NCBI GenBank assembly: GCA_030148165.1
Contig: JASBTZ010000008.1
Location: 62,001 to 126,000, forward strand
Source of the DNA: Bacteroidota bacterium
GTDB lineage: Bacteria > Bacteroidota > Bacteroidia > Flavobacteriales_D > Crocinitomicaceae
Direction: 5' to 3'
Length of the DNA: 64,000 nt
The notes under the pieces are model-generated. The model saw only the letters and a program-made list of their open reading frames with translations. It was not told the DNA's origin and did not search any database. The translations under genes were made by a program, and so were the position numbers. Of this stretch, positions 60,445 to 64,000 are shown one piece after another. The first letter of the stretch is position 1. Each line of letters opens with the position of its first letter.

Positions 60445-60476
60445 TTGGAGATTAAAAATCAAATTTAAAAGATTTG
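60445..60476 (+). promoter_or_regulatory. Candidate promoter of the met operon
   Basis: TTG (60445-60447) and AAGATTTG (60469-60476) stand 21 nt apart; the second differs from the TAnnTTTG -7 consensus at its first base. It lies about 35 nt before the start of the riboswitch, the right place for the transcript that carries it. Confidence 0.45.
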
Positions 60477-60510
60477 TAACGTCATTTCCACATCGGTGGA
60501 TCAAAATGAT

Positions 60511-60628
60511 TTATAAAGAAGAGGTGAGAGACAGGCTCTGTGACCCTCTGGCAACCAACTTTAAGTTCTTAATTGAATTGGAAAATCGGTGCCAAATCCT
60601 GATTCGTCAGAAGGCGAAGAATATAAAT
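60511..60628 (+). promoter_or_regulatory. SAM-I (S-box) riboswitch
   Basis: The conserved S-box blocks appear in order: AGAGGTGAGAGACAGGCTCTG (5' part of P2), CTCTGGCAACC (the P2/P3 return, 60545-60555), GGTGCCAAATCC (60588-60599) and a closing P1 stem in which TTATA (60511-60515) faces TATAA near 60622-60626. SAM-I riboswitches switch off methionine genes when S-adenosylmethionine is high; the downstream metX and hom fit. No strong terminator stem with a U tract follows directly. Confidence 0.85.
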
Positions 60629-60637
60629 TAATTGATT

Positions 60638-60754
60638 ATGGAAATTTTACATTCTTATCAGAACTTAACGGGATCCACCGGATCAAGAGACTTTTTTAAA
60701 GATTCAGCTTTAGAACATCGAATGTGTTCTTGTATGTGCTGTTGTCGCTGCTAG
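60638..60754 (+). CDS. Cys/Met-rich leader-peptide ORF between riboswitch and metX
   Basis: A 38-codon ORF (ATG 60638, TAG 60752-60754) whose last ten residues are MCSCMCCCRC: six Cys and two Met in ten codons. A shorter form starting at ATG 60722 would be just those ten residues. The final codons lie in a hairpin TGTCGC (60743-60748) with GCGACA (60762-60767), which a stalled ribosome would open; TTGC/GCAA (60758-60761/60770-60773) competes with it. This is the layout of an attenuator sensing Cys- or Met-charged tRNA, placed after a SAM riboswitch. Function is inferred. Confidence 0.7.
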   Translation: MEILHSYQNLTGSTGSRDFFKDSALEHRMCSCMCCCRC

Positions 60755-60829
60755 TCATTGCGCGACATAGCAATTTCCTGACCCTGTACTCCAGGGAATA
60801 CCCCTTTATATCATTTTTAAAAGCATACA

Positions 60830-61897
60830 ATGAATACATTCACACATACAAAACCATTTATACTAGAAAATCAGGAAGAGATTAGTGAGCTACACATTGC
60901 TTACCACACTTATGGTCAATTAAACGAAACTGGATCCAATGTAATCTGGGTTTGTCATGCACTAACTGCTAACAGCGATGTTTTAGATTGGTGGACTGGT
61001 CTCTTTGGTAAAGAAAAACTCTTTGATCCGGACGACTATTTTATCGTTTGCCCGAACATTTTAGGATCGTGTTATGGAACTACCGGTCCTGCAACTCCCT
61101 TGAAAAATCAACGTCCATTACTGACTAATTTCCCTCAGATTACGACACGTGACATGGCGGCAGCTCATAACCTGTTGAGAGAGCATCTTGGGATCGAACA
61201 AGTCAAAATTCTAATCGGCGCTTCGCTTGGGGGGCAACAAGCGTTGGAGTGGTCGATTCAGAAACCGTCTTTGTTTGATGAATTGATTCTCATAGCGACA
61301 AATGCCAGACATTCTGCTTACGGAATTGCATTCAATGAGAGTCAGCGTTTGGCATTACGATCAGATCCAACATACGGCAATGGAGATGTCGATGGCGTTA
61401 AGATTGGATTACAAGTGGCTCGATCCATCGCGATGTTAAGTTATCGTAGTTATGACGGATATGAAAAATCACAGACTGATTTTGACGAGCGAAAGGATGG
61501 ATTCAGTGCTTCCGGTTACCAACGGTATCAGGGATTAAAACTGGCTAATCGGTTTAATGCATATTCATACGAATGTTTGACTGTAGCTATGGATAGTCAT
61601 AATGTTGGGCGTGGCAGAACTTCTGTTCAAGATGCTCTGCAAAAGATTTCAGCCAGAACACTTTGCATTGGAATTAGAAGCGATCTTCTATTTCCGCCCA
61701 AAGAGCAATTAGAAATCGCATCTCATGTCGAGAACTCCTATTACATCGATATCGATTCAGATTATGGCCATGATGGATTTCTGATCGAATATGAAAAGCT
61801 ACATCTAATTATAGAAGACTTTATTAAAAATGATTTTCGCAAGCATCGTCCAACAACACTAAAGGCATTTGTAAGCGAAGAAGTAATTGCAAACTAG
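60830..61897 (+). CDS. metX: Homoserine O-acetyltransferase
   Basis: 355 aa. Alpha/beta hydrolase of the MetX family: NVIWVCHALTANSDVLDWW at the N terminus, the nucleophile in GASLGGQQALEWS (Ser about 130), PNILGSCYGTTGPAT, and the catalytic DYGHDGFLIE near the C terminus. Acetylates homoserine for direct sulfhydrylation to methionine. First structural gene after the SAM riboswitch and leader ORF; hom follows after 15 nt in the same operon. Confidence 0.94.
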   Translation: MNTFTHTKPFILENQEEISELHIAYHTYGQLNETGSNVIWVCHALTANSDVLDWWTGLFGKEKLFDPDDYFIVCPNILGSCYGTTGPATPLKNQRPLLTNFPQITTRDMAAAHNLLREHLGIEQVKILIGASLGGQQALEWSIQKPSLFDELILIATNARHSAYGIAFNESQRLALRSDPTYGNGDVDGVKIGLQVARSIAMLSYRSYDGYEKSQTDFDERKDGFSASGYQRYQGLKLANRFNAYSYECLTVAMDSHNVGRGRTSVQDALQKISARTLCIGIRSDLLFPPKEQLEIASHVENSYYIDIDSDYGHDGFLIEYEKLHLIIEDFIKNDFRKHRPTTLKAFVSEEVIAN

Positions 61898-61912: not shown

Positions 61913-63154
61913 ATGAGTAAACAATTAAAAATTGGCCTGATCGGATTCGGATGTGTTGGATCGGGATTGTACGAGGTATTGAATAAATCTAACCTATTTG
62001 ATGCTGAAATCACCAGGATCGTGGTGAAGAATCCTAACAAGGAAAGAACCATTGGAAGAGAAAATTTCTCGTACGATGTCAACGTGATTCTTAATGATCC
62101 TGAGATCAACGTAGTAGTTGAATTGATCAATGATACGGAGGCAGCGTATCACATTGTCAAGGAAGCATTAAGCCGCGGTAAAAACGTGGTTTCTGCGAAT
62201 AAGAAATTAATCGCTGAAAATCTCGAAGAGTTGGTAGGTCTGGCAAAAAGAAATCAAACTTCTTTCTTGTACGAAGCGGCTGTAGGTGGATCAATTCCGA
62301 TTATCAGAAACCTGGAGGAGTATTATAACAACGATACGCTTAATTCCATTGAAGGGATCGTTAACGGAACAACAAACTACATTCTTTCAAGATCGAATCA
62401 AGGTGTCGATTATCAATCAGCTCTGACAGAAGCTCAGAATTTAGGTTTCGCTGAAATAGATCCGAGCTTGGATGTCGAAGGCTTTGATTCAAAATACAAA
62501 TTGGTATTGCTGTTGAAACATGCTTTCGGATTGAGTGTTGTTCCTGAGGAAGTAATCAATATTGGTATTAGTTCACTATCGAATAGTGCTATTGAATATG
62601 CGCAGGAGAAAGGATACAGAATTAAACTCATTTCCAGAGCAGAGAAAATAAGTAACAGGATAGTGGCATTCGTAGCTCCGCACTTTGTTGGACCTGATCA
62701 TTTTGCCTACAACATTAACAATGAATTTAACGCAGTTATTGTCGAGGCTTTATTCAGTGATAAACAGCTTTTTATAGGTAAAGGGGCCGGAAGTTACCCA
62801 ACGGCTAGTGCTGTCTTGTCGGATATCTCCGCATTGAAATATGACTACCAGTATGAGTACAAGAAAGAAAGTGATCAGTTAAATCTCATTCACGATAATG
62901 ATATATATGTCAACGTATTCGTGAGCAGTAACTCAATTTCTTTCATTGAGAAGTATGAACTGAAGGAGCAAAATGAAATTTATGTATCGCGAGACTCTGT
63001 CTTTAGAACAGGATGGATAAAGCTGCGCGATCTGGATCAAATTGGAAGAGATTTGAACACTTCTGTAATCATACTTCCGGGTAGCTTCAAATCAGAGAGT
63101 GAATTCAAGAGTAAAGGCGAAAAAACGCTTTTAATCGAAAATACCGGAACGTAA
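61913..63154 (+). CDS. hom: Homoserine dehydrogenase
   Basis: 413 aa. N-terminal NAD(P)-binding domain (KIGLIGFGCVGSGLYEVL, about 5-22), the catalytic domain VNGTTNYILSR and GFAEIDPSLDVEGFDSKYKL, and a C-terminal ACT-like regulatory region (about 320-395; DNDIYVNVFVSSNSI). Reduces aspartate semialdehyde to homoserine, the acceptor for MetX. Its stop overlaps the start of the YeeE-type gene, so transport and synthesis are one unit. Confidence 0.95.
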   Translation: MSKQLKIGLIGFGCVGSGLYEVLNKSNLFDAEITRIVVKNPNKERTIGRENFSYDVNVILNDPEINVVVELINDTEAAYHIVKEALSRGKNVVSANKKLIAENLEELVGLAKRNQTSFLYEAAVGGSIPIIRNLEEYYNNDTLNSIEGIVNGTTNYILSRSNQGVDYQSALTEAQNLGFAEIDPSLDVEGFDSKYKLVLLLKHAFGLSVVPEEVINIGISSLSNSAIEYAQEKGYRIKLISRAEKISNRIVAFVAPHFVGPDHFAYNINNEFNAVIVEALFSDKQLFIGKGAGSYPTASAVLSDISALKYDYQYEYKKESDQLNLIHDNDIYVNVFVSSNSISFIEKYELKEQNEIYVSRDSVFRTGWIKLRDLDQIGRDLNTSVIILPGSFKSESEFKSKGEKTLLIENTGT

Positions 63155-63615
63155 TGAACAACTATTTAGCATGGTATATAGCAGGTCCCTTGATCGGACT
63201 TATGGTTCCGATTTTACTTATAATCAGGTCAAAACAACTTGGGATATCATCGGGTCTGAGATGGCTGGGTTCGCTTCTGACCCCCGGTTTATCCTATTTT
63301 GATTATAACAGAAAGAAGGATTTCTGGCAGATCGAATTTACGATTGGGATCTTATTGGTTTCAGTACTCTTCGGAAGTCTGGGTTTGATACCTGAATTTA
63401 AGGGAGATAAAGAAATATTGATTGCAGAAAATGCACCTGTCTTTTTGGTAGGAGGAATATTAATAGGCTTCGGTTCTCGCATGGCTAATGGTTGTACAGC
63501 CGGACATTGTATCATGGGTACCTCGCAGTTTTCGACGGCTTCAATAATTGCAACGATATTCTTTTTCATTGGGGGATGGATCGCATCTAACTTTTTAACA
63601 AGCATAATTTTTTAA
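63154..63615 (+). CDS. YeeE/YedE-family sulfur-transport protein, first half
   Basis: 153 aa with four membrane segments (about 8-26, 60-78, 95-115, 130-150). The hallmark FGSRMANGCTAGHCIMG (GxR-x-GCTxGH) carries the conserved Cys of YeeE/YedE (PmpA-type) transporters of thiosulfate or other sulfur compounds. Followed after 1 nt by a second, matching half. Its start overlaps the hom stop. The association with a methionine operon supports a sulfur-supply role. Confidence 0.85.
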   Translation: MNNYLAWYIAGPLIGLMVPILLIIRSKQLGISSGLRWLGSLLTPGLSYFDYNRKKDFWQIEFTIGILLVSVLFGSLGLIPEFKGDKEILIAENAPVFLVGGILIGFGSRMANGCTAGHCIMGTSQFSTASIIATIFFFIGGWIASNFLTSIIF

Positions 63616-63616
63616 A

Positions 63617-64000
63617 ATGAAGACACTAATAACCATTGCTATGGGAATGATCTTTGGATCTATTATAATCGCCTCAGGTGCATTTTCCTGGTCGGTAATT
63701 AATGATATGTTTCATTTCAGATCGTTTCATATGTTCGGGCTTTTATTTTCCGCTATCGCAACGGCAGCCATTTCACTTATAGTCATTAAAAAGTGGAAAA
63801 TCAGAGACATTACGAAGCAGAAAATTGAAATAAAACCAAAACCCCTGGAATTGAAGAACAATGCGATCGGTGGATTGATCTTCGGTATCGGATGGGGAAT
63901 TACTGGTGCTTGTACTGCTCCGATATTTATAATTTTAGGTATTAAATGGTACATTGGTTTGAGTCTTTTGTCAGGAGCAATAATTGGCGTTGTGTTGTAT
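63617..64000 (+). CDS. YeeE/YedE-family (DUF6691-like) protein, second half, cut by window edge
   Basis: Partial: 128 codons to the end of the window, no stop. Membrane segments near residues 5-22, 40-58, 85-100 and 105-128, with the conserved GIGWGITGACTAPIF motif (GxGWGxTGACxGP type) that pairs with the first half. Two half-size YeeE genes in tandem are the usual arrangement for this transporter type. The rest of the gene, and any following sulfur gene, lies outside the window. Confidence 0.85.
   Translation, partial: MKTLITIAMGMIFGSIIIASGAFSWSVINDMFHFRSFHMFGLLFSAIATAAISLIVIKKWKIRDITKQKIEIKPKPLELKNNAIGGLIFGIGWGITGACTAPIFIILGIKWYIGLSLLSGAIIGVVLY

Follow-up and report, generated by a model that had tools for sequence, protein, structure and literature searches.

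The leader between the SAM-I riboswitch and metX

The window analysed here is a stretch of 64,000 nucleotides (nt) from a Bacteroidota bacterium of the family Crocinitomicaceae (assembly GCA_030148165.1, contig JASBTZ010000008.1, positions 62,001 to 126,000 of the forward strand). Close to its end lies an S-adenosylmethionine (SAM)-I riboswitch aptamer, followed by a short open reading frame (ORF) that ends in a run of cysteine (Cys) and methionine (Met) codons, and then by a metX-like gene. We propose that this leader is probably a nested two-sensor attenuator, in which SAM determines if the leader is translated, and a ribosome that stalls at the Cys/Met codons releases the operon. The features of the locus are as follows.

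60508..60629, + strand: SAM-I riboswitch aptamer (RF00162, Rfam match), a variant with a GAGAGA/GGCTC arm
60508..60515, + strand: 5' strand of stem P1, GATTTATA
60622..60629, + strand: 3' strand of P1, TATAAATT, with 8 nt between its end and the leader ATG
60638..60754, + strand: Cys/Met leader ORF, 38 codons plus stop
60722..60751, + strand: codon run M-C-S-C-M-C-C-C-R-C
60738..60771, + strand: hairpin H1 (predicted fold), overlapping the leader stop codon and the last part of the Cys run
60773..60799, + strand: hairpin H2 (predicted fold), TTTCCTG...CAGGGAA, without a terminator-like U-tract behind it
60823..60829, + strand: CATACAA before the metX ATG, predicted partner of TTGTATG (60731-60737) in the codon run, not general in relatives
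60830..61897, + strand: metX-like homoserine O-acetyltransferase (TIGR01392, 333 bits, below the equivalog cut-off of 500)

The aptamer matches RF00162 in sequence and structure, with a score of 68.9 bits against a gathering threshold of 44.4. Together with the translation of the ORF (MEILHSYQNLTGSTGSRDFFKDSALEHRMCSCMCCCRC, followed by the stop codon), this match confirmed the 38-codon ORF with a Cys/Met end that the initial annotation had placed between the riboswitch and metX. The ATG at 60638 is the likely start of the leader, with an in-frame TTG at 60632 as a possible alternative. The last ten codons read ATG TGT TCT TGT ATG TGC TGT TGT CGC TGC; at the base composition of 60601-60830, at least six Cys codons in one fixed set of ten have a probability of ~1.5e-7. 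The window's leader peptide matched no family at an E-value of 1 or better in NCBIfam and Pfam, and the metH riboswitch of the host genome (L001), which serves as a within-genome control, lacks such an ORF. The spacer between the leader stop and metX is 75 nt long and contains the two predicted hairpins, and the region 60700-60835 is more stably folded than its own shuffles (z -3.2).

Occurrence and coding capacity of the leader in relatives

The metX loci compared are the best 80 of 572 relatives found among genome contigs, the nearest of which come from Crocinitomicaceae, other Flavobacteriales or Bacteroidota metagenome-assembled genomes and share ~60% identity. SAM-I sites were taken from 60 relatives and 247 genomes of the phylum, with part of the sites fetched, and an aptamer-only sample was chosen by the aptamer letters alone from 295 genomes of the class. 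Regular expressions written for the core of the aptamer located the sites, and the set was cleared of near-identical entries (95% over 250 nt). In labels coined here, type B aptamers carry GAGAGA...GGCTY and type A aptamers GAGGGA...RRCCC, the rest being unassigned. Downstream genes were assigned by BLAST against at most 12 references per group, of which one each was checked: the metY reference (L059) matches TIGR01326 with 686 bits (cut-off 495), and the metH reference (L001) is a fragment of TIGR02082. A leader was counted if an ATG-initiated ORF of 15-80 codons started within 75 nt of the GGTGCC core and had at least three Cys in its last 14 codons.

By this count, 97 of the 124 type B or unassigned SAM-I sites before metX, metY or hom possess a leader (83/99 type B, 14/25 unassigned), 72 of them before metY, 24 before metX and one before hom; at least four Cys in the last 14 codons occur at 88 of the 124. 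Among 2,480 dinucleotide shuffles of related leaders, an ORF with at least three Cys arose in 0.9% and one with at least four in 0.08%. The initial annotation had judged the Cys run to be beyond chance, and these rates, along with the probability given above, rule out a chance origin. The leader is absent from all 50 SAM-I sites before metH and from all 47 metX/metY sites with the canonical type A aptamer, and the remaining small groups gave 3/8 for type B, 0/7 for type A and 0/2 for unassigned aptamers elsewhere. In the aptamer-only sample, which shares a few loci with the other sets and takes in the site of the window itself, it was found at 30 of 45 sites and in 13 of 15 families (24/31 sites with an assigned metX or metY, 5/8 with a gene not assigned by the script and 1/6 with other or unrecognised genes). 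Three sites of family f55, in which GGTGCCCC replaces GGTGCCAA, were excluded from the 124, and two of them carry a Cys run. Named strains of the cultured genera Pedobacter, Mucilaginibacter and Hymenobacter have both leader and aptamer, which makes the system testable.

The run behaves as coding sequence. Three or more tandem TGY triplets are present at 74 of the 124 sites, always in frame with an ATG just 3' of P1 (74/74), and the other two frames are open over them in 6 of 148 cases. Both Cys codons are used (TGT 292, TGC 235), and Met, which played no part in site selection, makes up 13.5% of the tail versus 1.1% of the rest. Across 11 independent pairs, the ratio of nonsynonymous to synonymous change (pN/pS) was 0.32 for the final 12 codons and 0.60 for the body, and the 70 aligned Cys positions of the tail comprise 54 identical codons, eight TGT/TGC exchanges and eight residue changes. 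As judged from these alignments, the leader tail is under purifying selection. Pathway-product codons thus lie near the end of a short ORF before a biosynthetic operon, in a peptide conserved in relatives, as is typical of attenuators.

Some members of the window's genus, namely L113, L122 (apparently on the same contig as L016), L124, L126 and L128, have a reduced Cys run (MCCCCMA, MCCMA, ACRMA, MRQMA) and retain the ORF; these loci offer a natural series for codon tests. Two genomes of family f20 contain additional type B SAM-I sites (L257, L258, L275, L276 and L278), none before a recognised metX or metY. L278 has four Cys in its candidate tail and the others are leaderless, L276 lying before a gene of the phosphoadenosine phosphosulfate (PAPS) reductase family.

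The P1 stem, the codon run and homocysteine supply

The P1 3' strand ends close to the leader ATG, most often 7 nt before it (median 8 nt); the distance is 6-9 nt at 66 of 96 measured sites, and some of the outliers look like mis-found P1 strands. At 47 metH sites, by comparison, the gap to the gene start is 29-135 nt, with a median of 50 nt. P1 is nearly all A-U, as GATTTATA/TATAAATT in the window, with a mean strand GC of 1.0 of 8 versus 2.1 at metH sites. Translation in Bacteroidota starts mostly without Shine-Dalgarno pairing and favours an A/U-rich, open upstream sequence. As the P1 3' strand lies within the leader initiation region, the two layers look nested more than stacked: a ribosome starting at the leader ATG must occupy this strand, so that a SAM-stabilised P1 should exclude ribosomes and block leader translation. 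Moreover, the 8 nt between aptamer and leader ORF leave no room for an S-box terminator.

When SAM is bound, P1 would form and the leader would stay untranslated; when SAM is low, the A-U-rich P1 would open and ribosomes would start the leader. If charged tRNA-Cys or tRNA-Met is short, they would stall at the codon run, and otherwise they would finish. A ribosome held at the leader end would keep the structured, pyrimidine-rich spacer from shut-off, most likely by denying entry to Rho, and shut-off would follow both when high SAM leaves the leader untranslated and when ample Cys and Met let ribosomes complete it; these output steps are the least certain of the scheme. Starvation, we infer, would open the operon. 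A leader whose translation would be gated by SAM and whose Cys/Met codons would act as a sensor is well supported by anatomy and conservation, from which the blocking and the stalling are deduced. The two-layer attenuator of the initial annotation accordingly stands as a conserved coding leader joined to the riboswitch and tied to metX or metY, and its hairpin mechanism is not supported in general, as described below.

The genes behind metX in the window are listed here.

61913..63154, + strand: homoserine dehydrogenase (hom), by family search
63154..63615, + strand: Sulf_transp (PF04143) membrane protein, matching the C-terminal half of the profile
63617..64000, + strand: second Sulf_transp (PF04143) frame, continuing beyond the window end

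A MetZ/MetY-like gene (C18:126466-127608 of the host genome, L318) lies ~470 nt beyond the window end. The MetX and MetZ-like proteins score below the curated equivalog cut-offs and are therefore named by best family only. Taken together, metX, hom, the sulfur transporter and the metZ/metY-like gene behind them should make homocysteine. Homocysteine leads to methionine and SAM, and to cysteine via CBS and cystathionine γ-lyase, which would make the leader a sensor of all three end products. The host genome encodes a CBS-like protein (490 bits, cut-off 510) and a cystathionine γ-synthase/lyase-like protein, and no CysE over the cut-off (best 36.7 bits, cut-off 210.65); homocysteine from the operon could thus feed methionine, SAM and cysteine. 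We tentatively extend the nested attenuator to a three-input gate for SAM, tRNA-Cys and tRNA-Met that may open only when all three are short, with a Cys leader that can also stand alone and tends to be lost where CysE exists.

No genome of the class has a CysE match over the cut-off; a clear group scores 129-191 bits, and a line was drawn at 120 bits in the gap below it. Of the 29 genomes with the leader, 6 have a CysE-like gene by this line, versus 6 of the 8 that have the aptamer type and are leaderless (Fisher p 0.008), and an 80-bit line gives 9/29 versus 7/8 (p 0.012); G061, whose short candidate has two Cys, was placed among the leaderless genomes. CBS-like genes fail to separate the groups, as full-length matches of at least 477 bits are present in 32 of 37 genomes and interrupted ones in two more. 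The interrupted matches, which contain stop codons, belong to two genomes of family f20 (G130:C21:549405-550385 and G224:C1:2778223-2779200), and both of these also have CysE-like and shorter CysK-like matches.

A pattern for one Met and four Cys codons just upstream of a stop was found in 61 of the same 295 genomes, with nine matches in the reversed control; many of the matches are chance frames. Among 30 loci and 20 fetched regions, leader-like short ORFs precede cysH (L327-L329), hom (L330-L332, with a nitrite/sulfite reductase behind hom in L332), nitrite/sulfite reductase (L341, also L301) and PhyH (L342, L343, also L306 and L307). Families were identified at one locus each, namely PF01507 and PRK02090 (L327), PF00742 (L330), PF03460 (L332), PF01077 (L341) and PF05721 (L342). 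Rfam found no riboswitch in the nine loci L327-L332 and L341-L343, and the Cys-run leader therefore seems separable from the riboswitch; in L302 and L340 it found a riboswitch that the aptamer expression had missed. The ORFs of L327-L329 have 24 codons, end in MCCCCCCC and the stop, and lie before cysH and an OsmC-like frame, with the cysH start ~100 nt past the leader stop in L327. Those of L330-L332 have 34-35 codons and end in MCCCCCMCMC (L330), MCCCCCMC (L331) and MCCCCCCTY (L332).

By eye, a strand after the stop in L330-L332, GGTTTGATG (GTTTGATG in L331), can form one of two pairings, back across the stop or forward with CATCAAAC(C), an arrangement that resembles a classical switch. The Met/Cys-run ORFs of L342 and L343 (MRMCCCCCC...) lie 55 nt before the PhyH-family gene, which has no obvious link to sulfur.

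The output step and rival explanations

The distance from leader stop to gene (10th, 50th and 90th percentile) is 61, 87 and 345 nt for metX and 95, 122 and 217 nt for metY, and at 79 of 97 sites the spacer folds more stably than shuffled versions of it (p 3.6e-12). In a classical transcription attenuator, a protector, an antiterminator and an intrinsic terminator would be arranged round the Cys run and stop, with the riboswitch acting separately. The hairpins of the window do overlap the codon run, and the arms TGTCGC (60743-60748)/GCGACA (60762-60767) and CCCTG (60782-60786)/CAGGG (60792-60796), on which the initial annotation had based its scheme, are present in the sequence; its TTGC/GCAA and CCCTG/CAGGG stems were unseen by eye in the spacers of relatives, with no separate test made of them. 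Further in favour of such an attenuator, nine Pedobacter-like sequences, picked for look-alike spacers, keep three hairpins, the first of which lies inside the Cys codons. In these hairpins 94% of cells are paired versus 31-52% in slid alignments, one of 500 shuffles scored as high, and the nine double-change cells affect four pairs of the third hairpin, one of the second and none in the first. By eye, a few sites also look like a hairpin with a U-tract, among them L009, which the script left unscored. A Mucilaginibacter-like set, also of nine sequences, folds only weakly to a consensus, and its covariation term is unfavourable. Against this reading, terminator-like hairpins are near shuffle level (21 of 97 leader sites versus 15% of mononucleotide shuffles), a consensus scan found no terminator in the window, and pairing switches, scored as the spacer nucleotides for which the codon region competes, stay below the shuffle level (5.4 versus 6.7 nt). 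The terminator/antiterminator scheme of the initial annotation is hence not supported as a general feature, and we regard a classical attenuator as unlikely.

Alternatively, translation attenuation would have the Cys-codon RNA pair with the metX or metY start, which a stalled ribosome would set free. UUGUAUG of the codon run in the window is predicted to pair with CAUACAA before the metX ATG, in a duplex of -14.3 kcal/mol. Across relatives, however, the pairing of a codon run with its own gene start is no stronger than with swapped ones (38 of 74 usable sites, p 0.36), and the accessibility of the gene start is no different with the ribosome stalled than with the leader finished at the 74 usable sites (p 0.46). 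The median distances of 87 and 122 nt to the gene also speak against this mechanism, which appears improbable.

Conservation at the peptide level would also be expected if the ORF yielded a working Cys-rich micropeptide for metal or redox binding, with no role as a codon sensor. However, the peptide varies from 21 to 59 residues with no fixed tail spacing by eye, Met replaces Cys in Sphingobacterium (MRMRMHMH), and the run lies right against the stop (in 58 of 97 leaders the last residue is Cys) and is linked in cis to sulfur operons; there is thus little chance that a peptide product accounts for the leader. That the UGY repeats are an RNA motif, serving as a protein site or a structure and not as codons, is nearly refuted, since the repeats, although in one clade they take part in a fold with the RNA around them, are in frame with the ATG throughout, are interspersed with in-frame ATG codons and have Met-only variants.

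For the nested attenuator, denial of Rho entry is ranked first among output steps, with low confidence. Rho is present and a pyrimidine-rich stretch follows the leader (66% pyrimidines at +10 to +29 past the stop; longest run 8.5 versus 6.35 in shuffles, higher at 66 of 97 sites), but the spacer is structured. At E. coli tnaC, which differs in ligand, codons and host, a stalled ribosome blocks Rho near the stop. The ranking also draws on the actinobacterial Cys leaders, which are alike in this respect: they have no conserved terminator hairpins and carry poly-pyrimidine motifs, and Rho is suspected there, in what the authors call a weak prediction (PMC1262725).

Several observations weigh against the nested attenuator and its extension. 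No common output device emerged among those tried, since terminators, start masking and codon-region switching are not supported as general features, and the pyrimidine tract, a modest one, had its own shuffles as sole control. The Cys run is missing by the count used at 27 of the 124 sites, including lineages that keep the aptamer. At least two of these misses are second, probably false, matches of the expression (L030, L055), and others (e.g. L189, L203, L251, L253, L259, L260, L273, L274) have no such tail; the misses also include Sphingobacterium L062 and L075, whose Met-rich tail MRMRMHMH, with a single late Cys, is perhaps a Met version of the sensor. In the window's genus, at least three Cys occur at 12 of the 18 sites read and not at the other 6, and three more fetched loci failed to match the expression; the conservation in relatives, on which the initial annotation had made its proposal depend, extends to most lineages seen and lapses in part of this genus. 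Indels that are multiples of three make up 18 of 54 in leaders versus 18 of 99 in spacers, in weak alignments, so the frame is not clearly preserved by this measure. Collapsed to genera, the CysE correlation is 5/19 versus 4/6 (p 0.14), which is not significant, and rests on few lineages.

Related systems and upstream features

At the Salmonella mgtA/mgtL locus, ion sensing is joined to a codon-sensing leader peptide, with another ligand, other codons and another host. Leaders with Cys runs are known before cys operons of Mycobacterium and P. acnes and before cbs of B. longum (PMC1262725), and the excerpt of PMC13236596 cites translation attenuation as the cysteine response of M. smegmatis (Canestrari 2020). 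The actinobacterial leaders have the same anatomy, a short ORF with Cys codons near its stop before sulfur genes; they differ from those described here in phylum and gene set, whereas here the ORF starts at the SAM-I P1 stem and Met codons are mixed in. The Bacteroidota leader works like them and, by phylum and gene set, is not a member of their group. Similarly, uORFC-8-2, the cysS leader of Rhodobacterales, has conserved Cys codons inside a stem and was proposed as a ribosome-mediated attenuator; however, it has two Cys codons and a U-run terminator and lies upstream of cysS, and the excerpted text mentions no riboswitch (PMC8632094).

On the riboswitch side, the first target at ppe2 of M. 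tuberculosis is the translation of an upstream ORF (uPPE2), on which the downstream gene depends (PMC11260477). Here too, the ligand-bound fold would cover the initiation region, given the median of 8 nt between the P1 3' strand and the ATG. In contrast, ppe2 responds to B12, its upstream ORF and gene overlap and act mainly by termination-reinitiation, and no starvation codons are described (PMC11260477); we consider it a near precedent for a riboswitch-controlled translated leader. The S-box riboswitches share the RF00162 aptamer, and differ in that P1 here overlaps the leader ORF initiation region. Within Bacteroidota, leader-peptide attenuation has been suggested before amino-acid operons of Flavobacterium psychrophilum (PMC9723704), and leader-peptide-like short ORFs occur in long 5' untranslated regions of Bacteroides thetaiotaomicron according to the excerpt of PMC7366714. 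A literature search, outside which lay most subscription papers and all preprints, found no report of a SAM riboswitch joined to a Cys leader: PMC9971707 is a ligand review as far as its excerpt goes, the excerpt of PMC8079986 is not on point, and that of PMC2965389 does not match the combination. Each half is therefore known, and the nesting of a metabolite riboswitch with starvation-sensing leader translation is new as far as this search shows. If correct, it explains how SAM-I aptamers act with only ~8 nt to the next ORF, offers a physiological reason in homocysteine as the source of Met, SAM and Cys, and extends Cys-codon control to Bacteroidota sulfur operons.

Upstream of the aptamer, two minor features were noted.

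60469..60476, + strand: possible -7 promoter element AAGATTTG, a weak 7/8 match to TAnnTTTG, the consensus quoted in the excerpt of PMC9723704
60488..60499, + strand: small hairpin CCAC/GTGG, 5' of the aptamer, seen by eye

A scan for promoters of the sigma-70 type gave nothing in the region of 60469..60476. The CCAC/GTGG hairpin is situated between this possible promoter and the aptamer, and visual comparison shows it again in several Flavobacteriales relatives.
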